A stretch of DNA of 32,485 nt from an uncultured Chlorobiaceae bacterium (GCA_903895195.1 CAITSZ010000013.1:1-32485); one strand, 5' to 3'; numbered from the stretch's first letter, positions 17,177 through 32,485 are shown. Made by a program: numbers and translations. Notes: a model not told the origin generated them from the sequence alone.

Positions 17177-18349
17177 ATGCGTTATTTCAGGCTGACAATA
17201 ATAACAGTCCTATTCATAGCGTTATCGCTTATATCGTCAATAGCTTCCGCAGAGGATAAACTGCTTTTTTCAGGCTTTGCCTTCTCCGGCAACTTTGAAA
17301 ACAGAAAGGAACTCTATCCTTACTCGTCTCAAATAGAACTTCTGAAAAGTGAGAACGGGCAGGCATTGCTCAACAAGGTTTTTTATGACAAAATAAAAAA
17401 CCGACCAAATGAGGATGCACGATTAACGACTGAACTTGGCAGGATTGGCCAGGGAAATCAAATCACTGTCGCATTTGCGCTTACCTATGAGACTGTTGAA
17501 TATATGGAGCTCGACGGGCATCTGCTTTTGTTTCTCGGGATAAACGCCAATGTTCTGGCTTTTGACAGGGCTACAAAACAGTTGATTGCTGCGTATCCTC
17601 TTCGGATACGATATCATGACAGCGTCAATCACAGGCTGAACAATGAAGAGATTGTGGCCTTGTTTAAAAGGCTCTATTTAACAAACGACTTAGGAATCAA
17701 TCCTTTTGACGAGTGGCTGAACAGGTTTGCCCAAATAAGTTTTAAAGGTCGTTATACAAAGTATCTGCAGGTTAAAAACATTGCTATTGAACCTGAGGCC
17801 TTGACCTTTATAAGTGCCAATAAGCAAAGCTCTAAAGCTTTAAAGAATCTTATTGCCAATGAGCTGGAATCGTCAATAGCTACAACAAACAACATTCCGA
17901 TAATACCCTGGAGCCCTGGTGAAGTTGTCGGGAGAGTGATGGCTTTGCGGTTTTGTGACGGCAATACGTTTATGCTGAATTTGCCAACCCCTGATTTTGA
18001 GGTTGATTTTGGTCTTCGTGCTTTTCGTGGAGCTGAAGTTGAGGGATCATACTCAAAACAAAAGGTCTATCGGGTTTTAGGAACAATCAAAATTTTACAG
18101 AGCGACGTCAGGAAGTATCATTTGAATGAGAATATATACAACACGCAAATTGTAACCCTTGCACGAGCCTATGATGCAAAAGTTGAAGACTGGGAGCAGT
18201 ACAAGAAGACTTTAAACGAGCTCCTTTATGAAACTTCGAAACAGTTTTCCAGTGTAAACTCAGACTGGATTAAAGAACATGCTTCCAGGGGTTCTGAAGC
18301 CAATGACGCATTTCGTGATGCATCACACATTATAGATCAACTTAAATAA
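17177..18349 (+). CDS. Exported protein of unknown function, first gene of an envelope cluster
   Basis: This 390-residue protein has a clear signal peptide (about 1-25, hydrophobic core then SIASA-E). The mature part of about 365 residues has no transmembrane segment or Cys pairs (one Cys near 259) and mixes alpha and beta. It contains LLFLGINANVLAFDRATKQL (117-136), then a middle region around SSKALKNLIANELESSIA and PWSPGEVVGRVMALRFCDGN. The C-terminal third is helical and charged, so it should be periplasmic or attached to the outer membrane. No family was recognised. GC content is low (about 40% in a sampled line). The next gene begins 13 bp after its stop, so it is likely the first gene of a six-gene operon. 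Confidence 0.7.
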   Translation: MRYFRLTIITVLFIALSLISSIASAEDKLLFSGFAFSGNFENRKELYPYSSQIELLKSENGQALLNKVFYDKIKNRPNEDARLTTELGRIGQGNQITVAFALTYETVEYMELDGHLLLFLGINANVLAFDRATKQLIAAYPLRIRYHDSVNHRLNNEEIVALFKRLYLTNDLGINPFDEWLNRFAQISFKGRYTKYLQVKNIAIEPEALTFISANKQSSKALKNLIANELESSIATTNNIPIIPWSPGEVVGRVMALRFCDGNTFMLNLPTPDFEVDFGLRAFRGAEVEGSYSKQKVYRVLGTIKILQSDVRKYHLNENIYNTQIVTLARAYDAKVEDWEQYKKTLNELLYETSKQFSSVNSDWIKEHASRGSEANDAFRDASHIIDQLK

Positions 18350-18362
18350 CCTGTATAACACC

Positions 18363-19097
18363 ATGAAATTCAAATCATTAGTCGTTTTGGTCGGATTATC
18401 GCTTTTAATCACTGAACCGTCGATGGCTGAACATATGAGGTCAAAAGATTCTCTGTTCACCTTTTTATTCATGGCTCGAAAAGCGACCTCAATCACTCAA
18501 TTTGATGAGAAGAGAACTGATGTCCGTGTTCGGGTTAATACAACGCCCGGCAGCGTGGGTTTTGTGTCGGGAACTCAGATGGAGCAGACCGGCGGCAGCA
18601 CCCAACGGAAGGCAGATGCGGTAACCTATGAGGTAACAAGCTCGCAGGATATTGATTCTGCAATGGGAGAGGTGTTGACAACGGCAGGTATTGAGTATGC
18701 CGCTTATGATGATGTGATGATTAATGGTCATGGTCCTGATCCTGCTGTGATCAAGCCTGAATTTGTCCATAAGGATGATGTAAGTGCTCAGACAAGAGCT
18801 AAAATAATCAATGCGGCACGTAAATGCGACGTGCGTTATTTAGCGACAGGAACTATCGATATAGGGGTTAACGATGTGGATCCGGTATCCGGCAACAGAC
18901 GTGTTTACGTTTCGGTAAGGGCTAATCTGTGGGATATCAGTACAACTCTTCCAAGAAAGGTCGGTTCGGTCGGCCCTGTTCAATTTTCGGGGCTGGGACC
19001 TGATCAGAGCGTAGCGAGCCGTAATGCACTTATCATTGCTGCAAAAGAGACCGCACTCAGTCTGGTTGATCAATTGAATGCCAAAGGTGTCCGTTAA
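18363..19097 (+). CDS. Exported protein with CsgG/FlgT-like C-terminal region
   Basis: This 244-residue protein has a signal peptide (1-22, ending PSMA). Residues about 100-244 show the pattern of the CsgG/FlgT/LpoB nucleotide-binding-like fold. A helix with KIINAARKCDVRYLATGTID (about 140-160) is followed by a strand pair in VYVSVRANLWDISTTLPRKV and a long C-terminal helix with ALIIAAKETALSLVDQL. There is no lipobox, unlike CsgG. In known systems this fold occurs in outer-membrane secretion pores (CsgG), flagellar outer-membrane proteins (FlgT) and peptidoglycan synthase activators (LpoB). Which applies here cannot be told. It lies 13 bp after the preceding gene and 31 bp before the next. 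The fold call is by eye. Confidence 0.65.
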   Translation: MKFKSLVVLVGLSLLITEPSMAEHMRSKDSLFTFLFMARKATSITQFDEKRTDVRVRVNTTPGSVGFVSGTQMEQTGGSTQRKADAVTYEVTSSQDIDSAMGEVLTTAGIEYAAYDDVMINGHGPDPAVIKPEFVHKDDVSAQTRAKIINAARKCDVRYLATGTIDIGVNDVDPVSGNRRVYVSVRANLWDISTTLPRKVGSVGPVQFSGLGPDQSVASRNALIIAAKETALSLVDQLNAKGVR

Positions 19098-19128
19098 CTC
19101 TTTTTTTACAAGAAAACTGGAACTCATT

Positions 19129-19746
19129 ATGAAGTTTAGAGCATTCGTTCTTGTTGGGGCATCGCTACTGGTCGCAACGTCGTCAGCGGCTGCATTCGGA
19201 CTGTCAGATATACTTGGTGGGGGAAGCTCTTCAAATGGCGGAAAGACAAATGTCAGAGAGGTTGTTCATAACTGCAAAAGAGCTTTGCATAAATATCTTG
19301 ATTCACAATATCTCCTTATTGATGCTTTGGACTTGAAAGAGGAATTAGCCGCCAGAAAGGCCACTCTTAAATTTGCAGAGAAAGGCAGTGCTGAACAATC
19401 GGATGAGGATTTGATAGCAGAATCCGATGCATGCAGTGACGTGATCAGGCCGCGCATTGAATCAAATAAAAGTATGGACGCTGAGCATAAAAAACTGGCA
19501 GCAGTTGCCGCGTTAAAATATGTTCAAGCTGCCATTGAGACAAAAAAAATGGTTGGAGGTTTAACAAGTCTTGATACTGCATCGCTTGGCTTTGCCGATA
19601 TCGGTCCTGTGCTGTATCTGATTAACCATGTGCCGCCGGTGGTATCTAATGCAGTCTCTACGACAGGCAAGCTTTTGAAATATCTGTCTGCGAATAAGGT
19701 CGATGTAACGGAGGCAAATAAAGCCGCTTCCGATCTTGGGGTATAA
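19129..19746 (+). CDS. Exported helical protein of unknown function
   Basis: This 205-residue protein reads from ATG 19129. An in-frame ATG at 19078 would overlap the previous gene and push the signal peptide inward, so it is rejected. The signal peptide is residues 1-22 (SSAAAF region). A Gly/Ser-rich linker (DILGGGSSSNGG, about 26-37) leads to a mostly helical domain with two conserved-looking Cys (near residues 49 and 101) that could form a disulfide, and then a hydrophobic stretch (LGFADIGPVLYLINHVPPVV). No family recognised. It lies 18 bp before the next gene in the cluster. Confidence 0.65.
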   Translation: MKFRAFVLVGASLLVATSSAAAFGLSDILGGGSSSNGGKTNVREVVHNCKRALHKYLDSQYLLIDALDLKEELAARKATLKFAEKGSAEQSDEDLIAESDACSDVIRPRIESNKSMDAEHKKLAAVAALKYVQAAIETKKMVGGLTSLDTASLGFADIGPVLYLINHVPPVVSNAVSTTGKLLKYLSANKVDVTEANKAASDLGV

Positions 19747-19764
19747 TTAATTGAACAGTGAGCT

Positions 19765-20073
19765 ATGAAAAAAAGATTTGCGATAGCCGCAGTAACCTTT
19801 TTAGGGATTATGGCATCAGGTGCAAACGTGTCATATGCTGATGCCGCTTTCTGGAAAGAGAAAGATCGCGAAGAGGCGGTGACACAAGAAAAGCTTCATG
19901 ATCAGAAGCTTGAAATCATGGATGCAAAAGCGGAGGCTCGGCTTCGGCTGGAAGAGGAAAAGACAGAGCAGGAGCGATTACGGTTAGATCGGGAGGATAT
20001 AAGGCTCAGGGAGCGGGAGCTTAGAAATGAACGACAGCGCCCTCAGAATAACTATATCATTGTCGAACCATGA
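19765..20073 (+). CDS. Small exported charged-helix protein
   Basis: This 102-residue protein has a signal peptide (1-26, ending VSYADA). It is followed by one long, highly charged helix (about 28-92) rich in Glu, Arg, Lys and Gln, with Leu spacing that suggests a coiled coil (RLRLEEEKTEQERLRLDRED). The tail is short (NNYIIVEP). Its stop overlaps the start of the lipoprotein gene (ATGA at 20070-20073), indicating translational coupling. A periplasmic spacer or scaffold role is possible, in the way of small coiled-coil periplasmic proteins. No specific family recognised. Confidence 0.65.
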   Translation: MKKRFAIAAVTFLGIMASGANVSYADAAFWKEKDREEAVTQEKLHDQKLEIMDAKAEARLRLEEEKTEQERLRLDREDIRLRERELRNERQRPQNNYIIVEP

Positions 20074-20471
20074 AATTTGCGTTTTTGGCAGTTATAGTGA
20101 GTCTCGGTATTGCCGGATGCTCCTCAATGGACTCGATAAGGACAGAAAACAGGCATAGAATGGCAGGCCTTTATACTGGAATGTCAAGACATGAGGCGTT
20201 GGCTGTCATGGGAACAAACACAATAAGAAGTTCTGAGGGCCGATTGATCAGCAACCCTTACCGTACTAAACTATACCGTGTGCCTCGCCATGAGTTTGAG
20301 CTTTTACTCTATTACACGGATGAAAACCACTATCATGACGCCATTACTGACGAGGAGTTGACTCCCCTGGTTATAATGGACGGAAAGCTTGATGGCTGGG
20401 GCTGGTCACACTGGAAGGCTCTCTGGCAGAAGTATGACCTTTCTCTCTGGCAAAGAGGGCAACATCATTGA
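20070..20471 (+). CDS. Outer-membrane lipoprotein, DUF3192-like
   Basis: This 133-residue protein has a lipoprotein signal peptide ending in IAGC, with lipidation expected at Cys17. The mature part has GLYTGMSRHEALAVMG (about 33-48) and ends with LTPLVIMDGKLDGWGW. This is the pattern of small lipoproteins such as DUF3192, distantly like the BamE/SmpA fold (G-M...V...G, then a strand with DGKL.GWG). The DUF assignment is from memory. With Ser at +2 (CSS), it should be sorted to the outer membrane. It is translationally coupled to the charged-helix gene before it. Confidence 0.75.
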   Translation: MKFAFLAVIVSLGIAGCSSMDSIRTENRHRMAGLYTGMSRHEALAVMGTNTIRSSEGRLISNPYRTKLYRVPRHEFELLLYYTDENHYHDAITDEELTPLVIMDGKLDGWGWSHWKALWQKYDLSLWQRGQHH

Positions 20472-20549
20472 GTAAACTGCACGACTATGAAGGGTATGGG
20501 CTAATTATTACATGTTTTTTATAACCTCTTACAGTACAGGAGACTACCT

Positions 20550-20948
20550 ATGAAAAAGACAATCTGGATGTTTGTCGCAATTGCCGGGATAGCAGGAATG
20601 CTTCTTGGTGTTCCACAAGAAAGCGCTCAGGCAGAGCCTCGATTTGTTATTCATGCCCGCCCTGACTTTGTCTATTTGCCAGAGCAAAGGTTTTCTATAG
20701 CAGTCAGGGGACCCTATGATATGATATTAGTCGAGGACGTGTATTATATCCACCGTCATGGAGAGTGGTTTCGTGCGCCACACTTCCGTGGACCATGGAG
20801 TTTAATATCACAACGTGATCTGCCGCACAGAGTCAGCAGATACAGCTGGAGTGAAATAAGAGACTTGCGTGATGCGGAGTTTCGCCGTCATGATCGCGGC
20901 TACTGGGAAGACCGGCACCGTCATGAGCGTGATCACGGGGATCGCTAA
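20550..20948 (+). CDS. Exported His/Arg-rich small protein
   Basis: This 132-residue protein has a signal peptide (about 1-28, ending SAQA). The mature part starts with beta-rich segments (FVYLPEQRFSIAV, MILVEDVYYIHRHGEWFRAP) followed by GPWSLI and LPHRVSRYSW. The C-terminus is rich in His, Arg and Asp (RRHDRGYWEDRHRHERDHGDR region). Short exported proteins with a 'PYD...YY...G.W..A...GPW' pattern occur in Geobacter-type bacteria, to my recollection, with no known function. The His-rich tail could bind metal. The ATG has a good AGGAGA site. It is the last gene of the cluster and ends just before a strong terminator. Confidence 0.7.
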   Translation: MKKTIWMFVAIAGIAGMLLGVPQESAQAEPRFVIHARPDFVYLPEQRFSIAVRGPYDMILVEDVYYIHRHGEWFRAPHFRGPWSLISQRDLPHRVSRYSWSEIRDLRDAEFRRHDRGYWEDRHRHERDHGDR

Positions 20949-20954
20949 CCCTTG

Positions 20955-21007
20955 AAAAAAAGCTGGAGGAGGCGCAGTCTGAACTGCCGCGGCTTCCTCC
21001 AGTTTTT
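20955..21007. terminator. Bidirectional intrinsic terminator ending the envelope cluster
   Basis: CTGGAGGA (20963-20970) pairs with TCCTCCAG (20995-21002), and an inner GCAG/CTGC stem extends it. A run of A precedes and a run of T (21003-21007) follows. On the minus strand the A run becomes a T tail, so it also ends the convergent Sel1-repeat gene (stop at 21026). Confidence 0.9.
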
Positions 21008-21025
21008 AAGGCAAAGCGACATCTC

Positions 21026-21619
21026 TTAAAGCCCCTTCTCTTTCAATTCACGATATTTATCGCAGCCTTCCTGAATTCCATTGTCGCAGGATTTTCCGTA
21101 CCACTCTTTTGCAACACTTTTATCCTGCCTGACTCCTTTACCTGCAGCATACAATGACCCAAGGATATACTGAGCCGCTGCATAGCCCTGATCGGCTGCA
21201 CGCGTATACCATTTCACTGCTTCTGCATAGTCCTGTCTTACGCCTTTACCCTTTTCATACAACTTGCCAAGATTGGACTGAGCGGCTGCATCTCCTTTAT
21301 CGGCAGCAAGGCGAAAGCATTTGGCCGCTTCAACATAATTCTGCGGTAGACCTTTGCCCTCCGCGTGCAACATCCCGAGATTGTAAAGAGCTGAAACATT
21401 GCCCTTATCAGCAGCAAGATGATACCATTTAATGGCTTCAGCGTAGTCCTGCCGGACACTTTGTCCCTTTTCATAAAGCGTGCCGAGAGTTGACTGAGCT
21501 GCAGCATCTCCCCTGTCAGCAGCAAGACGGTATGCTTGAACCTCGGCAGGAGTGAGAGCTTTTGCTGTACTGAACAAAAGTATCGAGCAAAAAACGGATG
21601 TCAGTATTTTTTTGAGCAT
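21026..21619 (-). CDS. Exported Sel1-repeat protein
   Basis: This 197-residue protein has a signal peptide (1-21, ending STAKA). Four Sel1-like repeats of 36 residues follow, each with the pattern A..Y..AA..G...A...LG.LY..G.GV.QDY. A fifth, degenerate C-terminal repeat contains two Cys (SCDNGIQEGCDKY). Such proteins form solenoids that bind partner proteins, often in the periplasm. The start at 21619 is chosen over longer in-frame starts because the signal peptide begins there and AAGAGAT precedes it. It is convergent with the exported cluster and shares its terminator; whether it is functionally related is unknown. Confidence 0.87.
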   Translation of the reverse strand: MLKKILTSVFCSILLFSTAKALTPAEVQAYRLAADRGDAAAQSTLGTLYEKGQSVRQDYAEAIKWYHLAADKGNVSALYNLGMLHAEGKGLPQNYVEAAKCFRLAADKGDAAAQSNLGKLYEKGKGVRQDYAEAVKWYTRAADQGYAAAQYILGSLYAAGKGVRQDKSVAKEWYGKSCDNGIQEGCDKYRELKEKGL

Positions 21620-21780
21620 AGCTATCTCTTGTTCCGTTAGATAATGAGAAAAAGGGGTTGAGTGCATAAGTATAAGCATAATAAAACAACAGCTCCAAAA
21701 AGTGCTGCCATAGCTTGACGAATTCATCCACCGATGATTACCGCCTGATGCCTCTGACATCCGATTGAAAAGTGAACCTA

Positions 21781-22497
21781 TCAGCCGAGATATGCCGCCA
21801 TCACTGCCGGGTTTTCGGCAAGACCGGCGCTGGCGCCCTCAAGAACAACGCTACCGCGTTCTATGATATAGGCCCTGTCTGAAACGGCGAGGGCAATTTT
21901 GGCAAATTGCTCGGAAAGGAGGATGGTCATTCCTGAAGAATGGAGAGCACGGATGGCTTCGAACACCTCTTTGACCACCAAAGGGGCTAGCCCCATTGAA
22001 GGCTCATCCAGCACCATAAAGCGGGGCCTGGCCATAAGAGCACGGCCGATTGCCAGCATCTGCTGCTCTCCGCCCGAGAGACTGCCTGCCTGCTGTGCTC
22101 TGCGCTCATCAAGCCGAGGGAACATACGGTATATCTGCTGCAGGTCGCCGGAAGCGGCACGGCGGAAGGGGCCGAAAGATGGCAGGCGCGGATAGGCTCC
22201 AAGAAGCAGGTTCTCCTCAACCGTGAGTGGCCCGAATACCCGCCTTCCCTCGGGACAGAGGGAAAGTCCCCTTCGTGCAACTTCGCTTGCGGGCAGACCG
22301 GTTATCTCTTTGCCGTCAAAGAAGACTCTGCCGGCCCGAGGAGTGAGAAGACCACAGAGGGCTTTTGCCAAAGTGCTCTTCCCTGCACCGTTGGCTCCGA
22401 CCAATGCGACACATGATCCTTCGGTGACCTCCATGGAAATCCCCCGCACAGCATCATCACCGCTATATCCTGCACGCAGGTTCTCAACCTTCAGCAT
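21781..22497 (-). CDS. livF: Branched-chain amino acid-type ABC transporter, ATPase (LivF-like)
   Basis: This 238-residue ATPase belongs to the HAAT/Liv transporter family. Walker A is GANGAGKST (34-42), the signature is LSGGEQQ (140-146), Walker B is MVLDEP (161-166), and the H-loop is replaced by SEQ (LLSEQFAK), as is usual in LivF. It acts with LivG to drive import. The ATG start overlaps the 3' end of the fused permease-ATPase gene by 7 bp and has GGGAGG upstream, showing translational coupling. Family members import branched-chain amino acids, but urea, amides or aromatic compounds are also known, so the substrate is not fixed. GC content is well above that of the neighbouring genes to the left. 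Confidence 0.92.
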   Translation of the reverse strand: MLKVENLRAGYSGDDAVRGISMEVTEGSCVALVGANGAGKSTLAKALCGLLTPRAGRVFFDGKEITGLPASEVARRGLSLCPEGRRVFGPLTVEENLLLGAYPRLPSFGPFRRAASGDLQQIYRMFPRLDERRAQQAGSLSGGEQQMLAIGRALMARPRFMVLDEPSMGLAPLVVKEVFEAIRALHSSGMTILLSEQFAKIALAVSDRAYIIERGSVVLEGASAGLAENPAVMAAYLG

Positions 22498-24407
22498 ATT
22501 TGAGCCTCCCTTTCAGTACTGCCATCTGTTTCTTCATCGTCTGCTCCAAGATATGCCTCAATAACTTTCGGATCGCGACGAATCTCGGCGGAAGTGCCGA
22601 GCGCAATCACACGACCTCCATCCATAACGGCAACACGGTCGCACAGTTCGGCAACAACATCCTGGTGGTGTTCAATGAGCAGAATCGGTATTCCTGCTCG
22701 CTTAATGGAAGCTATCAGATCTACAAGACGGACGATATCCTGTTTGGACATGCCGGCGGCAGGCTCATCGAGCATCAACACCCGCGGCCCGGTGGCAAGA
22801 GCCCTTGCAATTTCAAGAAAGCGAAGGTCGCCGTATGACATATCCGAACAGCGATCGCGAGCATTTGCTTCCAGACCGACTGCACGAAGCCAACCCATGG
22901 CCTCTCTTTTTCCTCCGGTACGCTGACACACAAGAATTGATTCCAAGGCAGTCAAACCGGAAAAAGGCTGCAGATTTTGAAACGTTCGGGCAGCTCCAGC
23001 TGAGAATGCCGACATTAGCTTGCCGGGTAAAGGCCGGTTGCCGGCAATTTCCACTGAGCCGCCATCGGGAGCATAGAGCCCGGATACAAGGTTTACAAAG
23101 GTTGTTTTGCCCGACCCGTTCGGACCTATTAATCCGAGAGTTTCACCTTGACCGATTTCAAGAGAGACGTTATCTACTGCCCTGACTCCTCCGAACGATT
23201 TGCTGAGCTGAACGGTGCGCAACGGTAGCGCCCGTGAAATTGCCTCTGACATTGTGATCCCTCCCGCAGCCTGCGGCAAAGGATCGGGTGTAAAACGAAG
23301 CAGGCGATGCAGGGCTGCTGCAACGGCCCCCGCAAGTCCGTCCGGAAGGCCGACGACTGCGGCAAAAAGAAAGAGTGCAAATATGCCTTTACGCCAATCT
23401 TCAACATTGTGCGCTAACAGTGCCAGAGCCAGTGCCAGTGACATAGCGCCTGCCGGAGCAGCGTCACGGAAGGATGGAAGCCTTCGTGAAATCAGTGCCC
23501 GGATAGCAGGAAGAAGCGTAAGAATGAATCCACAAGTGACAAGACTCAAAAAGAGTGTCCGGTTTGAGAGCAGATTAGGCAACATGGCTACAACCGCTGC
23601 TCCCGCGAATGCACCCCACTGGCTTCTTCGACCACCGAAAACAACTCCGAGCAGCAACATGACCATCAGATCGTACCCGAAAGCTGCGGGCTGCAGGTAA
23701 CCGAAATTCAGAGCATGTAACGCCCCGGCCAGACCGGCAAGTGCGCTGCCCCATGCGAAGGCCAACGCCTTGTGGCGCAAGGTACCTATGCCAAGAGCAT
23801 CGGTGGCTGTAGGAGAATCGCGCAACGCCTCGATGGAGAGGCCAAAGCGCGATTTAAGCAGAATTTCCGAAGCCCACCATGCAAGAAACAAAACCACGAG
23901 ACAGAGCCAGTAGAAACCTCTCGCGTCAAGTGTAACGGTAAAGAGAGAGGGCCTGATGATCGAAATACCCAGAGCGCCATGGGTAATTGATTCGGACTCA
24001 TTGAGAAAGATGACTGACAAGGTCGCAAAAGAGAGCGTGGAGAGGGCAAATTGCGGGCCTTCCAAGCGCAATGCCGGCAATGCCAGTGCTGCGCCAGGAA
24101 GAAGAGCTGCAACTATGCCCGCCAGCATCGCTATAGGAAAGGATGCGCCTGCCTGAACGGCAAGAGCAGTCCCATAGGCACCAAGACCAAAGAGCGCGGC
24201 CTGGGCAAGGTTAACCTGCCCGAGGTATCCGACTGTGGCGTCAAGTCCGATGAGAAGAACTCCGTAAACCGCCATCAGGGTGAGCAGGCCAAGCGCATAT
24301 TGCCCCTGCCAGAGTGCCGGAAGAATAGCGAGCCCCAAGAACAGGGCGAGACGCACAAGGCGTTCGGCGGTATTTTCTCTCAGGGCAATAGTAACTCCGG
24401 CAGACAT
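22491..24407 (-). CDS. ABC transporter fused permease-ATPase (LivM-LivG fusion)
   Basis: This 638-residue protein joins two normally separate subunits. Residues about 15-370 are a LivM-type permease with some ten hydrophobic segments and the motif GYLGQVNLAQAALFGLGAYG (60-79). Residues about 395-620 are a LivG-type ATPase with Walker A GPNGSGKT (428-435), Q loop TFQN, signature MSYGDLR (523-529, the LivG variant), Walker B LMLDEP (544-549) and H-loop IEHH. The frame runs through without a stop. The ATG at 24407 has AAGGGG upstream and lies 10 bp after LivH. Met386 could give a separate ATPase if used internally. Liv operons usually encode M and G separately; fused versions exist but are less common. 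Confidence 0.9.
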   Translation of the reverse strand: MSAGVTIALRENTAERLVRLALFLGLAILPALWQGQYALGLLTLMAVYGVLLIGLDATVGYLGQVNLAQAALFGLGAYGTALAVQAGASFPIAMLAGIVAALLPGAALALPALRLEGPQFALSTLSFATLSVIFLNESESITHGALGISIIRPSLFTVTLDARGFYWLCLVVLFLAWWASEILLKSRFGLSIEALRDSPTATDALGIGTLRHKALAFAWGSALAGLAGALHALNFGYLQPAAFGYDLMVMLLLGVVFGGRRSQWGAFAGAAVVAMLPNLLSNRTLFLSLVTCGFILTLLPAIRALISRRLPSFRDAAPAGAMSLALALALLAHNVEDWRKGIFALFLFAAVVGLPDGLAGAVAAALHRLLRFTPDPLPQAAGGITMSEAISRALPLRTVQLSKSFGGVRAVDNVSLEIGQGETLGLIGPNGSGKTTFVNLVSGLYAPDGGSVEIAGNRPLPGKLMSAFSAGAARTFQNLQPFSGLTALESILVCQRTGGKREAMGWLRAVGLEANARDRCSDMSYGDLRFLEIARALATGPRVLMLDEPAAGMSKQDIVRLVDLIASIKRAGIPILLIEHHQDVVAELCDRVAVMDGGRVIALGTSAEIRRDPKVIEAYLGADDEETDGSTEREAQIC

Positions 24408-24417
24408 GGCTTTCCCC

Positions 24418-25302
24418 TTAAACTTTACGGATAATTTTTTTACCGAATACCCCCTGCGGGCGGAGCGACAATGCAAGAATAAGCAGAATCAGACCGGGTG
24501 CTTCGCGCCATCCGCTCCCGAGCACATAGCCGGAAAGATTCTCCGCTACCCCTAACGCAATGCCAGCGAGAACAAGACCGAAGCCACTGTCGAGGCCCGC
24601 GACCACCGCAACGGAAAAAGCCTTCAGTGTCAAGGCTGCTGCCATTGTTGGGCCGACAGTTGTTACAGGGCCAATAACCGTTCCGGCAAATGCTGCCGCG
24701 ACCCCTGAGACCATCCATGAGAGAGAGATCGCCGAGCGTGAGCGAATACCGCATAACTCGGCTGCATCAGGATCTGCACTGACAGCCTGAACGGCGATAC
24801 CAACCATTGTGTAGCGCTTGGCAAGCTCAACCAGGGTCATGATGCCCAATGCCCCTGCTGCAATTGCAAGCTCAGGCCAGGTTACAGAAATTCCGAAAAA
24901 GTCGAGTGCTTCGGCTGGCCATGGCGTTGGGTAAGGGCGGTCATCCCTCCCCCAGATATTCTCCACCAGGGAGAGGGAAAACAACCCGACAATAATCGTG
25001 AGCAAAATCCAACCCTCATTACGCTGCTGCAGGGCGAGCCGGACGGCAACACGCTCGATACACCAGCCAAGGGCGGCCCCCGCAACCATCGCTCCCAACA
25101 CAGTGGCCCAGTATGGAAGACCGATACCGGAAAGTGAAATACCTGCAAACGCTCCCAGCATTACAAGTTCACCCTGACCGAAATTCACTGCCTTTCCTGC
25201 GGCATAGGTCAGTTGAAACCCATACGCTACAAGAGCATAGGCCATGCCCATCAGTCCTCCGCCAACGGCCATCTGAGCCAGAGCAAGATATTTTGCGTCC
25301 AT
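24418..25302 (-). CDS. livH: Branched-chain amino acid-type ABC transporter permease (LivH-like)
   Basis: This 294-residue inner-membrane permease has about eight hydrophobic helices. The family motif is in AYALVAYGFQLTYAAGKAVNFGQGELVML near the N-terminus; the NFGQGE stretch is characteristic. The start is taken as ATG 25302, 37 bp after the binding-protein gene. A TTG at 25366-25368 would overlap that gene and add a non-hydrophobic extension. It pairs with the permease half of the next gene to form the channel. The C-terminus ends in LSLRPQGVFGKK, the common LivH 'RP.GLFG' ending. Confidence 0.92.
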   Translation of the reverse strand: MDAKYLALAQMAVGGGLMGMAYALVAYGFQLTYAAGKAVNFGQGELVMLGAFAGISLSGIGLPYWATVLGAMVAGAALGWCIERVAVRLALQQRNEGWILLTIIVGLFSLSLVENIWGRDDRPYPTPWPAEALDFFGISVTWPELAIAAGALGIMTLVELAKRYTMVGIAVQAVSADPDAAELCGIRSRSAISLSWMVSGVAAAFAGTVIGPVTTVGPTMAAALTLKAFSVAVVAGLDSGFGLVLAGIALGVAENLSGYVLGSGWREAPGLILLILALSLRPQGVFGKKIIRKV

Positions 25303-26860: not shown

Positions 26861-29800
26861 CTACTTGCCTGATGGCTTAGAAATGTTTTCCGTTGATATG
26901 ACTACGGTCCAGCTTGTCTCCCCAAGACTTACTTTTACCCTGATGGGAAGCGCCCCCTGTGGAACATCTTTGGCGGTAAAAACCTTTTTGAATGAGTCGT
27001 AATAGAGCCATTCCGGAAGCGGTGCGCCATTGGTACGTGTAATTCTTTCTGCTGATGCAGATGCCTCCAGCACTGAGCGAACCTCTGCCGGAAGTGAAAA
27101 ACTGAATAATGTTCCCGAACGGACAATCTCAGCAGGCACGGAAACCTCAATTACTCCAGATGTCCCTCCTGTCGGCACTCTGATCAATTTAACAATAAGG
27201 CCGTCCACCTTGGAAAAAGATCCGCCTGCAACTCCGGCATCATTACCTGTTGCTACCGTAACGTTTGTTACAGGGGAAATCGACGTTTGATTTACTCCGG
27301 AAACAGAGGTCAATGCTTGCGTAATATTCTGCGATAAAGATGGTACGACATTATTACTTACTATTATAAAAGAGTTGACCGTAAGCGTGCTGCCGGTATA
27401 TGCTATGCTGTAATTCGGATTATGACCATTATCGACTGAACCCTGATGAATGGCATAGATACCTGCGGAGGTACCGGCATCACGAGCAAGTGTGCCGGCG
27501 AGAGTTTCGCCGGTCACCAGGCCACGACCTGCTGACATCTGTTCACTCTTCCAGGTTAACAACGGATCGGGCTCATTGGATTTTATTGTAAAGCCGTCAG
27601 CAATTACCGTAATCGGTCGGGGGGTAATGGGTGCCTGCGTTGTACTTTGGGCTGTAATGGTATAGTTGCCTGCGTCTGCACCGCTGTAACTGCTCGTGAG
27701 CGAAACCGTCTTTCCTGCGCCGACATTTTTCGTATCGAACAGTCCGCTTGCTGAGACTGACACCGCATCGCCGGTCATCAAGCCGGCATAAACTGCTGCG
27801 GCGGTGCTTACCGTCGCCAAGGCAGTGCCGTCGTAGACCTTGCCGGCAGCGGTGATGCCGCTGAGGGTGAGGGCTTTCGGTGTGATATCGGCCGTCGTTG
27901 TCTTTTGATCGATTATTGAGTAATTATAGAAATCCGCACCACTGTAGCTGCTGGTAAGTGTGACGATTTTTGCGACTCCAACATTTTTTGTATCGAACCA
28001 ACCGCTTGCCGTGACCTTTACATCATCATTCTTGACCAGCCCTGAAAGGTTTGCTCCTTCAGTGCTCACCGTCGCCAGGGTGCTGCCGTCGTAGACCTTA
28101 TTGCTGGCTGTGATGCCGTTTACGGTCAACAGTCCTGTAATGATCAATTCCTTCGGTCTTATATTGGATGTGGTCCTGTTTTGGCCTGTAATGGTGTAGT
28201 TACCGACATCAGCTCCACTGTAACTACTTGTCAGCATTACCGTTTTACCTGTTCCAACATTTTTTGTATCGAACAGACCAGTGGCTGATACGCTCAACGC
28301 ATCCCCGCTGACTATACCGCCATATATTGTTCCTGCGGTGCTTACCGTCGCCAAGACGGTACCGTCATAGATCTTCTCGGCAGCGGTGATACCGCTTATG
28401 GTGAGGGCTTTGGGGGTGATACTCGCTGTCGTTGCTGCCTGGTCGGTAATCGTATAGTTGCCTACATCTCCTCCGCTGTAACTGCTGCTCAGAGTTACCG
28501 TTTTACCGTTGCCTACATTTTTGTTGTTAAACAGCCCAGTAGATGCTACGCTCAACACATCGCCAGTCACCAAGCCGGCATAAACTGCTGCGGCGGTGCT
28601 TACCGTCGCCACGGCACTGCCATCGTAGACCTTGCCGGCTGCTGTGATGCCGCTTATGCTCAACGCCTTTGGGGTGATGTGCGCTATCACCGTCTCGCCT
28701 GCAGGCAGGCTGTAGTTGCTGGCCAGGCCGGTGCCGTCGGACAAGGTCACCGAGTCTACCGTCACAAGGTTTGCTGTAGTCACGTCCTTGGTGTTGAATT
28801 TCGCCGTCACGGTGGTGCCGAGCGTTTCAGAGCCAACGAGGTCGCCGACTTTGATAGTCATCGTCGGAGCAGCAGTGGTGTTGCCGTCATAAACCTTGTC
28901 TGGTGCAGAAACCGTGGCCGTCAACGTTTTTTTTGTGATGGAACCTGCTGCTGTGCCACCCGTCAGGGTATAGTTTCCGTTGGAGAGTACAAGCCCGCTT
29001 GTTGGCGTATAGGTGCCCACGTTGGCGCTCTCTGATGCGGCGCTGCCGCTGACCGTGAGCGCATCGCCATTAACGAGGTTAGTGGCTGAATAGATTGAGC
29101 CTGTCAGGGCTTTGGTGCCGTCGTATGCCCGGCTGCCGATGAGTGTCACCGGTTTAGGGTTAACCGTGAACGTACCATTGACGTAGCTCACACCAAACCC
29201 GGTTTGTGCCACGGCACCGCCAGGGGTGATGACATACCCGCCCTGAACGCCAGCTGTAGCGGCAGCAGCATCTGAAGTTGCTGTTGGCAGGGTACTCAGT
29301 GCGTCTGCCGTGCTGCTGTTTTGGTACACATTGCCATAGGTGGCTGCGCTGACCATCGGCAGTCCAGTGTAGGTGATATCACTCGCCACGAAGGTGTAAC
29401 TGCTGCCATAGGTCTTCGCCACATTGTTGGCAGTGATTACCACCGTTGCCGGTGCGCTGAACACGTAGCGGTTGCCTACGTAAGCGGCCTTCAGTGCTGT
29501 AGCACTGAGAGTACCGGGGCTCTTGCCCCAGATAGCCTGCTGACCGCTGGTGAGAGAGCCGAATGTGTTGGATGCCGGGGTGGTGCTGTAGACCATCCAG
29601 CTGCCGTCAGTGCCCGTGGCTTGCAGCGCAGTCGAACCGGAATTGTTGATAAAGTTGCCTCCAGCCTCCAGCGCCAGGTAGGTATTGGCTTTGTTGCTGG
29701 TGATGCTGCTTGCGCTGTTAAGTGTAATATTGCCGCCAGTAATGAGTTCGAGCGGAGAATTGTTGAAGGTATTGGACCCACTGACTGCAATCGCTCCAGC

Positions 29801-32485
29801 CGAGCTGTTGCCGATGGCAAAACGAGACCAATTGGCGCTGGTGAAATAGCCTAGAATAGTGCCGGTAAGGCCAAGCGTGCCAGTGCCGCCATTGATGCCG
29901 ATAGTGGTGCCTGAAGTATAGGGCTGGATAATCAGCGCGCCGGTGCCGGTGGAACCGGCCGATGCACTAAGCGAGTTCGCTGTCAGGGTCAAATCGCCGC
30001 TGCCTGTGCTGATGGCATTGAGAGCCAGCGATGTTCCGGTGGTCAGGCTTACAGCGGCGTTGTTTGTTGAAATGCCGCTGTAGTTGACAGCATTGAGCGT
30101 GAGAGCGCCAACCGTCAGCGCTGAAGCGTCGGTCAAGCTGAGAGAACCGATGCCGCTACCCGATGCAATGGTGCCGATGGCGTTGGAGCTGTTGCTGAGC
30201 GTCCTGGCGCCGGCACCGACAAAAACCAGACCATTACCATTGCTGTTGCCGGTAGTCACCTGACCTGTTATGGCCAAGCTGCCTGCACCACCGATGGAAC
30301 TCATGGCACCGAGTGCTACCGTACCGCTGGCAGTCGCGCCCGTCGAGCTATTGCTATTGATCAGCGCGCCGCCGTTGCTCACACCGCTGCCGCTGATGGT
30401 GAGATTGTTGGATAGTGTGTTACCGTTGAGATCCAGCGCACCGCCGCTGCTGACTGTCGTTGCACCGGTGCCCAGCGAAGCAGAGCTGCCCGCCTGGAGC
30501 GTACCCTCGCTGATGGTGACGCCACCGCTGTAGGTGTTGGCACCAGAGAGCGTCAGCGTGCCTGTGCCATCCTTTGTCAGTGTGCCTGTTGTGGAACCAA
30601 TAATACCACTTGATGCGATGTTGCCAACTCCTCCGAAGGTAACATTTTGAGTACCACCGATAGTACCACTCAACATCAGAGTGTTGCTCTCAGAATTGAT
30701 GCGCGTTGCGGCACCCAGGGTAATTGCACCGCCATAGGTATTATCACCACTAATGTTGCGTAGTGCACCGCCGTTACTTATACCCGTGCCTGAAAGGGTC
30801 AAAGCCTCGGCACCAATCGTTATACCACCGGAGAGCTCTAAAGCAGCACCGGAAGTGACTGTCACTCCTCCATCCGTAGTTCCAAGCGCTGTATTGTTCG
30901 ATGCCCTGAGCACACCTGCACTGATTGTTGTTGAGCCGGTATAGGTGTTGGGACCGGAGAGCGTCAGTGTGCCGCTGCCTGTTTTCATAAGACTACCCAA
31001 ACCGGACATTCCCCCTGAATATTCGGTTGAACTATTGTTTGCGCCAACGGCGAGAGAAACAGCAAGTGGCGTGGTTGCTAGATTGGAGAGACTGAAAGTA
31101 CCACTACCAGCCAAGCCTTGTGCTGTTATGGCCGTTACACCTGACGCAACATTAACAGCACTGTTATCCGTCAAGGTACCACTGCCAAGCGCAGTTGTAT
31201 TGCCAAGTGTCAGCATGCCTGCTGAAACTGTTGTGCCGCCGCTGAAGGTGTTGGCGCCGGAGATCGTCAGCGTGCCGTCGCCATCCTTTGTCAGTGTGCC
31301 TGTTGTGGTACCAATACTGCCGCTTGATGCGATATTGCCTGCCCCTCCGAAAGTAACATTTTGAGTACCACCGATAGTACCGCTCAACGTCAGAGTGTTG
31401 CTCTCAGAATTGATGCGCGTTGCGGCACCCAGGGTAATTGCACCGCCATAGGTATTATCACCACTAATGTTGCGTAGTGCACCGCCGTTACTTATACCCG
31501 TACCTGAAAGGGTCAAAGCCTCGGCACCAATCGTTATACCACCGGAGAGCTCTAAAGCAGCACCGGAAGTGACTGTCACTCCTCCATCCGTAGTTCCAAG
31601 CGCTGTATTGTTCGATGCCCTGAGCACACCTGCACTGACTGTCGTCAATCCGGTATAAGTGTTGGCGGCAGAAAGAATGACTGTTCCCGTGCCTGACCCT
31701 TTTGTCAATTGACGGGCACCGCCGGTTTCGCCAATGATGCCTGAAAGTGTTAATTGTGCATTAGCCCCCGCATCAACCGTACTATTATCACCAAGTGTGA
31801 TTGCTCCTGCAAAGGCGGATGTACCTGTACTCGCCTTGACGGTACCGCCATTGAGTGTCAGTGCCTCAAGTGCCGTGTAGTCAACACCTTGTAGATCCAG
31901 CGTCGCTCCGCTTGCAACTGATGTACCTGCCGCAGTTGTTCCCAATGCGATATTCTGTGTGACTGCAAGGGTACCATAACTTACCGTAGTCAGACCGCCG
32001 TAGCTGTTGTTTCCCGAAAGCGTCAGTGTGCCGGAGCCCAGTTTGGTGAGTGCACCTGAGGTGGACGCGCTCGACCCGGAGAGAGTAAGGTTGGTGGCAG
32101 CATTGGAGACGTCAATGCTTGATGTCTTAGCATTGGCGAGCGTGAAGGCTCGGTTTGTCGTTGCCGTAGTCCCTGTGTATTGCAGCGTACCGCCGTCGAG
32201 CACCAGATTGGCCGCATCGCTGGATGCCTGACCGAGATTGCCAGCCACGCCACCGTCGCCGATGGTGGCCACACTGAGCGTGCCGGCACTGATTGTCGTT
32301 AAACCGGTGTAGGTGTTGGTGCCTGAGAGCGTCAGTGTGCCGGGGCCTGTTTTTATAAGACTACCCAAACCGGACATTACTCCTGAGTATTCGGTTGAAC
32401 TATCGTTTGCGCCAACGGTGAGAGAAACAGCAAGTGGCGTGGTTGCTAGATTGGAGAGACTGAAAGTACCACTACCAGCCAAGCC
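26861..32485 (-). CDS. Giant filamentous-haemagglutinin-type adhesin, 3' part only
   Basis: 1874 residues are visible and the frame runs out of the window at its 5' end; the visible start is internal. Order from N to C: autotransporter-type beta-strand repeats (about 32485-30440; patterns such as GTLTLSGTNTYTGLTTISAG and LTKDGTGTLTLSGANTYSGG); a Ser/Thr/Gly-rich beta region; a WMVYSTTP...QQAIWGK...NRYVF segment (about 29680-29470) common in FHA-like exoproteins; an MBG-like domain; six YDG repeats (29165-27632) each with K.YDG; a last MBG-type segment; and a C-terminal domain with LPEWLYYDSFKKVFTAKDVP (Ig-like 'putative' type). There is no C-terminal beta-barrel, LPXTG or T9SS tail, so two-partner secretion (TpsA) is the best guess. 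No TpsB is in the window. Probable role: cell-surface attachment or cell-cell contact. Confidence 0.85.
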   Translation of the reverse strand, partial: GLAGSGTFSLSNLATTPLAVSLTVGANDSSTEYSGVMSGLGSLIKTGPGTLTLSGTNTYTGLTTISAGTLSVATIGDGGVAGNLGQASSDAANLVLDGGTLQYTGTTATTNRAFTLANAKTSSIDVSNAATNLTLSGSSASTSGALTKLGSGTLTLSGNNSYGGLTTVSYGTLAVTQNIALGTTAAGTSVASGATLDLQGVDYTALEALTLNGGTVKASTGTSAFAGAITLGDNSTVDAGANAQLTLSGIIGETGGARQLTKGSGTGTVILSAANTYTGLTTVSAGVLRASNNTALGTTDGGVTVTSGAALELSGGITIGAEALTLSGTGISNGGALRNISGDNTYGGAITLGAATRINSESNTLTLSGTIGGTQNVTFGGAGNIASSGSIGTTTGTLTKDGDGTLTISGANTFSGGTTVSAGMLTLGNTTALGSGTLTDNSAVNVASGVTAITAQGLAGSGTFSLSNLATTPLAVSLAVGANNSSTEYSGGMSGLGSLMKTGSGTLTLSGPNTYTGSTTISAGVLRASNNTALGTTDGGVTVTSGAALELSGGITIGAEALTLSGTGISNGGALRNISGDNTYGGAITLGAATRINSESNTLMLSGTIGGTQNVTFGGVGNIASSGIIGSTTGTLTKDGTGTLTLSGANTYSGGVTISEGTLQAGSSASLGTGATTVSSGGALDLNGNTLSNNLTISGSGVSNGGALINSNSSTGATASGTVALGAMSSIGGAGSLAITGQVTTGNSNGNGLVFVGAGARTLSNSSNAIGTIASGSGIGSLSLTDASALTVGALTLNAVNYSGISTNNAAVSLTTGTSLALNAISTGSGDLTLTANSLSASAGSTGTGALIIQPYTSGTTIGINGGTGTLGLTGTILGYFTSANWSRFAIGNSSAGAIAVSGSNTFNNSPLELITGGNITLNSASSITSNKANTYLALEAGGNFINNSGSTALQATGTDGSWMVYSTTPASNTFGSLTSGQQAIWGKSPGTLSATALKAAYVGNRYVFSAPATVVITANNVAKTYGSSYTFVASDITYTGLPMVSAATYGNVYQNSSTADALSTLPTATSDAAAATAGVQGGYVITPGGAVAQTGFGVSYVNGTFTVNPKPVTLIGSRAYDGTKALTGSIYSATNLVNGDALTVSGSAASESANVGTYTPTSGLVLSNGNYTLTGGTAAGSITKKTLTATVSAPDKVYDGNTTAAPTMTIKVGDLVGSETLGTTVTAKFNTKDVTTANLVTVDSVTLSDGTGLASNYSLPAGETVIAHITPKALSISGITAAGKVYDGSAVATVSTAAAVYAGLVTGDVLSVASTGLFNNKNVGNGKTVTLSSSYSGGDVGNYTITDQAATTASITPKALTISGITAAEKIYDGTVLATVSTAGTIYGGIVSGDALSVSATGLFDTKNVGTGKTVMLTSSYSGADVGNYTITGQNRTTSNIRPKELIITGLLTVNGITASNKVYDGSTLATVSTEGANLSGLVKNDDVKVTASGWFDTKNVGVAKIVTLTSSYSGADFYNYSIIDQKTTTADITPKALTLSGITAAGKVYDGTALATVSTAAAVYAGLMTGDAVSVSASGLFDTKNVGAGKTVSLTSSYSGADAGNYTITAQSTTQAPITPRPITVIADGFTIKSNEPDPLLTWKSEQMSAGRGLVTGETLAGTLARDAGTSAGIYAIHQGSVDNGHNPNYSIAYTGSTLTVNSFIIVSNNVVPSLSQNITQALTSVSGVNQTSISPVTNVTVATGNDAGVAGGSFSKVDGLIVKLIRVPTGGTSGVIEVSVPAEIVRSGTLFSFSLPAEVRSVLEASASAERITRTNGAPLPEWLYYDSFKKVFTAKDVPQGALPIRVKVSLGETSWTVVISTENISKPSGK
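27632..29165 (-). repeat. Six tandem YDG/MBG-type repeats within the adhesin
   Basis: Approximate units 27632-27890, 27891-28165, 28166-28430, 28431-28675, 28676-28940 and 28941-29165. Each encodes a domain of about 75-90 residues beginning ...KVYDG (or AYDG) and ending ...ITPKALT or a variant (KKTLT, PKPVT). The four 3'-most units in coordinates 27632-28675 are close copies sharing FDTKNVG.GKTV.L.SSYSG.D..NY.I; the other two are diverged. This indicates local duplication. Confidence 0.85.
30527..31637 (-). repeat. Near-identical direct repeat, 714-bp period, inside the adhesin
   Basis: Bases about 30527-30923 recur at 31241-31637 with a constant offset of 714 bp (238 codons, in frame). The portion from about 30641 to 30923 is almost identical in the second copy. 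Such young in-frame duplications permit length variation by recombination and can also cause assembly collapse. Confidence 0.88.
30961..32485 (-). repeat. Second direct repeat pair in the adhesin, 1368-bp period
   Basis: Bases about 30961-31117 recur at 32329-32485, an offset of 1368 bp (456 codons, in frame), with only a few substitutions. The copy continues to the window edge, so the full repeat is longer. Both copies encode a segment around GTFSLSNLATTPLAVSL. Confidence 0.85.

Follow-up and report, generated by a model that had tools for sequence, protein, structure and literature searches.

An order-conserved module of exported proteins in Chlorobiaceae and Betaproteobacteria with a member of predicted TolB-N/FlgT-middle/CsgG fold

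Three genes for exported proteins, P1, P2 and P3, are conserved in the same order in two phyla, and in Chlorobiaceae they form a constant unit together with a fourth gene, P4. The conservation of the P1-P2-P3 module across the two phyla is well supported, and the assignment of P2 to the TolB-N/FlgT-middle/CsgG fold class, which is based on a predicted structure, is well supported as well. The first-pass annotation had proposed a candidate undescribed envelope system, one protein of which has a CsgG/FlgT-like region, and this proposal is upheld for P1-P4. The fold itself is already known; the gene set and the partner families appear to be undescribed.

The window, that is, the whole 32,485-nucleotide stretch of DNA analysed, is contig C13 of a Chlorobiaceae genome of 2.49 Mb, and it carries six open reading frames, P1 to P6, on the same strand between positions 17177 and 20948 (Table 1). 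The distances between consecutive genes are 13, 31, 18, -4 (ATGA) and 78 bp, and the start of P3 in use is 19129, not 19078. Judged by eye, signal sequences are present on all six N-termini: P1-P4 and P6 begin with ordinary signal peptides with A-x-A-type end sites, the signal peptide of P2 ends at SMA/E without a lipobox, and P5 carries the lipobox GIAGC/SS. The arrangement of six same-strand genes with exported products described earlier is therefore confirmed in its reading frames and gaps, with the signal sequences read by eye. The strong terminator is also borne out; the hairpin has a minimum free energy of -33.6 kcal/mol and a z score of -5.08, and none of 200 shuffled sequences equalled it. 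Because dN/dS values against relatives range from 0.04 to 0.29, P1-P6 are real protein genes under purifying selection. The strongest constraint is on P1, P2 and P3 (0.04-0.09; about 0.08 for P1 and about 0.04 for P2), followed by P4 (0.13-0.18) and by P5 and P6 (0.13-0.29; 0.25-0.28 for P5).

Table 1. Features of the six-gene locus and its downstream flank, in window coordinates
Feature	Position	Strand	Description
P1	17177..18349	+	390 aa, secreted, without known family; core gene
P2	18363..19097	+	244 aa, secreted, predicted TolB-N/FlgT-middle/CsgG fold; core gene
P3	19129..19746	+	205 aa, secreted, probably helical, without known family; core gene
P4	19765..20073	+	102 aa, secreted, highly charged, coiled-coil-like; core in Chlorobiaceae only
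P5	20070..20471	+	optional lipoprotein of the DUF3192 family; ATGA overlap of its start with the stop of P4
P6	20550..20948	+	secreted, His-rich tail, optional; multicopy family
Terminator	20946..21014	+	intrinsic hairpin, then TTTTT; ends the operon
Sel1-repeat-like gene	21026..21760	-	secreted protein, convergent with the operon; terminator region common to both
Branched-chain amino-acid transporter cluster	22491..24476	-	LivM-like permease and LivG-like ATPase in one 661-aa open frame
Very large open frame	26861..32482	-	YDG, PATR and MBG repeats, autotransporter/adhesin-like; reaches window end, possibly incomplete

The first four proteins have no match among the curated families of Pfam and NCBIfam. 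By inspection, P3 is probably helical and P4 resembles a charged coiled coil. P5, on the other hand, is recognised as DUF3192 (PF11399; E 7e-8, 32.9 bits against a cut-off of 26.9), in agreement with the DUF3192-like lipoprotein first reported, and DUF3192 is a member of the BLIP/SmpA/PepSY superfamily (PMC2954215). The anti-phage models of PADLOC gave no match for P1-P6 or for the partner lipoprotein of a relative (described below), and P1 was unmatched in the phage collection.

By comparing the 98 genomes of the order, which include the window genome (G000), the conserved unit can be separated from an optional tail. P1 and P3 are present in an identical set of 11 genomes, all from the window's family and belonging to two genera, and P2 is found in the same 11 and, as a diverged homolog, in three more. 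The order P1-P2-P3-P4 is constant in all 11 carriers; P4 lies 3' of P3 in every one of them, with a lipoprotein gene intervening in a single carrier (G034). The ten named relatives returned by a contig scan are all metagenome-assembled genomes of Chlorobiaceae, which makes the host a green sulfur bacterium, and profile searches in genomes of the phylum gave no further P2 (394 genomes) or P1 (345 genomes). Several genus-1 carriers have common neighbours flanking the unit, on the SulP side or the liv side, and the Sel1-repeat-like gene keeps its position beside the operon in most genus-1 carriers. In both genus-2 carriers (L022, L023), P1-P4 lie between argH-like and argG-like genes (named by eye) of an arginine cluster.

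The last two genes behave differently. Only 3 of the 98 genomes have P5 at this position, and a fourth (L018) retains a short remnant of it. P6 is in place only in G000, G033, G072 and G066, and its homologs are dispersed across 84 of the 98 genomes, including five places in the window's own genome. The P6 family consists of His-rich exported proteins without a Pfam name, and a single Chlorobiaceae genome can hold as many as 13 scattered copies. The conserved unit is thus P1-P4, and P5 and P6 are an optional tail. Since P5 and P6 scatter independently, the earlier view of the six genes as one system is ruled out; scattering in relatives, which the first-pass annotation had taken to speak against such a system, is absent for P1-P4 and present for P5 and P6. 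In one relative, two tandem genes for PEP-CTERM-like surface proteins, 31-32% identical, are inserted directly upstream of P1 (L017:2898-4494); they were considered as a conserved partner of the module and rejected, being seen in this relative alone.

The module extends beyond the phylum. With a long P2 homolog as tblastn query, replicons of Cupriavidus metallidurans and Caballeronia were found, and in both of these Betaproteobacteria P1, P2 and P3 occur in the same order. The P1 homolog lies immediately 5' of P2, overlapping its start, and shows 30% identity in Caballeronia (E 4e-63) and 21.6% over 348 aa in Cupriavidus (6e-30). The P3 homolog lies immediately 3' of P2, with profile E values of 9.9e-9 in Caballeronia and 1.5e-4 in Cupriavidus, compared with 0.27 for the best of 2000 shuffled sequences. 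The module proteins of Caballeronia are annotated as hypothetical. In a tree of P2, the copies from Chlorobiaceae modules cluster with Caballeronia (100/99), apart from the long P2 of other Chlorobiaceae; the branches are long, and this grouping is tentative.

The CsgG/FlgT-like region first noticed in P2 stands by predicted fold and does not stand by sequence, in which the likeness is undetectable. By sequence, no PDB chain matched P1 or P2, and profile-profile comparison, for which the alignments were shallow, linked neither protein to CsgG/FlgT-like sets. No sequence link having been found, the CsgG/FlgT connection rests on a P2 model of moderate confidence. This AlphaFold2 model has a mean pLDDT of 66, with most of residues 94-244 at 70-87. 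When VIA-align was applied to it, FlgT (3w1e, residues 97-267) matched over 150 residues at Z 11.1 and an rmsd of 3.6 Å, TolB at Z 11.1, CsgG (6lqh) over 136 residues at Z 10.7, PelC at Z 10.5 and LpoB (4q6l) at Z 7.9; the first four values lie well above the Z 7-8 that chance best matches typically reach by the tool's own figure. The fold alone gives P2 no function, because the TolB-N/CsgG/LptE superfold serves many functions. P1 probably consists of two beta-rich domains. Its AlphaFold2 model, with a pLDDT of 41.7, is too poor for a fold claim, and the LptE-like VIA-align matches to its residues 32-189 reach at most a sub-threshold Z of 7.4; the order of secondary-structure elements and the LptE match give a hint that the first domain may be of the TolB-N/LptE type and that a second copy of it is perhaps present, which is a guess.

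A long form of P2, with an extra N-terminal domain of about 128 aa, occurs in Chlorobiaceae (two whole copies and one cut by a contig end) and in two Burkholderiaceae; profile-profile comparison of this domain with FlgT-like N-terminal domains gave no signal. In the three Chlorobiaceae genomes with a diverged P2 (G009, G017 and G051), which is long where whole, the gene lies beside CsgG/FlgT-middle-like genes, and in two of these three genomes FlgT-like and DUF6844 proteins are encoded alongside. DUF6844 is not named in the literature searched. This cluster (G009, G017 and partly G051) resembles the module in holding a P2 sister family and neighbours of CsgG/FlgT fold; it differs in that its P2 is the long form and that no P1 or P3 was found in it. 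It is apparently likewise undescribed.

A possible partner of the module is found in relatives. In a Chlorobium relative (G034; L020/L031), a gene for a 424-aa lipoprotein sits between P3 and P4, and its product matches Pfam LpoB at 4e-7, above the cut-off, and CsgG at 9e-6. Similarly, the gene directly after P3 in Cupriavidus encodes a lipoprotein that matches both CsgG and LpoB and is homologous to that of the Chlorobium relative (E 5e-27). The order P1-P2-P3-lipoprotein is common to Chlorobium and Cupriavidus and is therefore probably ancestral, with the lipoprotein probably lost in the other ten Chlorobiaceae carriers: no homolog was detected in the window genome or in nine other carriers, and tblastn found no relic of the gene in the window, where P3 and P4 are 18 bp apart. 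A further cluster (L134:5924-10092), with similar ones in L133, L135 and L136, all without the module, encodes a CsgG-family, FlgT-like protein with a lipoprotein and TPR-like neighbours. The CsgG-family (PF03783) protein of L134 is similar to the partner lipoprotein and adjoins a bona fide lpoB and a DUF1425 lipoprotein gene; it is possible that clusters of this type are extended LpoB operons.

Based on the results presented above, we favour a periplasmic module of the FlgT/LpoB kind, a ring or a scaffold/regulator at the interface of outer membrane and cell wall and not a secretion pore, and we give this reading about an even chance of being right. It is favoured because the fold class of P2 and of the ancestral lipoprotein is also that of FlgT, TolB-N and LpoB, all of which make connections among the outer membrane, the peptidoglycan or the machinery between them. 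The module would comprise P1-P2-P3 and an ancestral FlgT/LpoB-like outer-membrane lipoprotein, and P4 would be an addition of the Chlorobiaceae version. At the inner face of the outer membrane, P2 may self-assemble or pack on partners of like fold; P1, whose gene overlaps that of P2 in Cupriavidus and Caballeronia, would bind P2; P3 and P4 would be adaptors of helical structure; and in genomes that have the lipoprotein, it would anchor the set to the outer membrane. By analogy with FlgT and LpoB, the complex would be a scaffold or regulator linking outer membrane and peptidoglycan, with P5 and P6 as lineage-specific passengers or clients. The formation of a complex, its location and its function are what we infer for the module. 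A bolder version, in which P1-P2-P3 and the FlgT/LpoB-like lipoprotein represent a new cross-phylum class of trans-periplasmic ring or scaffold made of several TolB-N/CsgG-fold proteins, independent of curli, flagella, Pel and Tol-Pal, with P1 as a tandem of such domains, is speculative and rather doubtful.

Comparison with known systems places limits on each reading. The P2 model carries the fold of the FlgT_M type, known from FlgT of the Vibrio flagellar H-ring, and the partner lipoprotein of the relatives aligns over its length with FlgT-like and CsgG-like proteins. The three-domain architecture of FlgT, however, is not found in the P2 of the window, which has one middle-type domain only. 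No flagellar genes adjoin any module copy read, Chlorobium is non-flagellate, and we know of no flagellar counterpart of P1 or P3. With CsgG, P2 shares the predicted TolB-N-like core, and PF03783 proteins accompany P2 relatives; CsgG has a lipidated N-terminal Cys and two membrane-spanning hairpins, whereas P2 shows neither. In the single-chain model, only short loops join the strands of P2 at these sites (172-179 and 191-198), and its one long hairpin (43-83) is charged, of low confidence and located elsewhere than the membrane hairpins of CsgG. A CsgG-like pore made by P2 is therefore unlikely, given the short loops at the hairpin sites in the model and the missing lipobox.

These observations bear directly on the alternative that the module is an export or assembly machine, in which a periplasmic ring of P2, in the manner of PelC or CsgG, would gate a channel in the outer membrane through which a fibre or polysaccharide passes. 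The similarity of the P2 model to the rings of both proteins and the PEP-CTERM-like genes upstream of P1 are consistent with such a machine, but P2 lacks the membrane hairpins of the CsgG type, the module includes no barrel protein or conserved substrate, and the PEP-CTERM genes occur in a single genome. In addition, PF03783 (CsgG) and CsgF (PF10614) have no match in the whole window genome, the E. coli control for CsgF being found, in accordance with the original suggestion that the locus is distinct from curli. We regard this alternative as unlikely and as less supported than the scaffold, and the secretion or fibre role first suggested is not supported for this locus on the same points, the absence of P2 membrane hairpins and of a conserved substrate gene. 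An equally unlikely explanation takes the module for an alternative LpoB system, which would activate a penicillin-binding protein as LpoB activates PBP1B. P2 shares the TolB-N-like fold with LpoB in its model, the partner lipoprotein passes the Pfam LpoB cut-off, and a similar CsgG-family protein is encoded next to lpoB elsewhere in Chlorobiaceae. Against the NCBIfam LpoB model, however, the lipoprotein scores 16.5 bits, far under the cut-off of 110.55, and it is absent from the window genome; P2 is a non-lipoprotein without an LpoB sequence signal, neither PF13036 nor TIGR02722 matches any of P1-P6, and the lpoB loci read, unlike the module, are without P1 and P3. Chance cotranscription of unrelated exported proteins with no common machine would agree with the independent scatter of P5 and P6, but it is very unlikely for a P1-P2-P3 order kept in two phyla, at different chromosomal sites and under strong purifying selection.

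Proteins of the CsgG/FlgT/TolB/LpoB fold are central to fibre secretion, flagellar rings, Tol-Pal and the control of cell-wall synthesis. A further conserved set, with unnamed partner families (P1 and P3) and present in two distant phyla, is a candidate, limited in size and open to testing, for an unknown assembly at the interface of outer membrane and cell wall, and it would give names to proteins that are now annotated as hypothetical.
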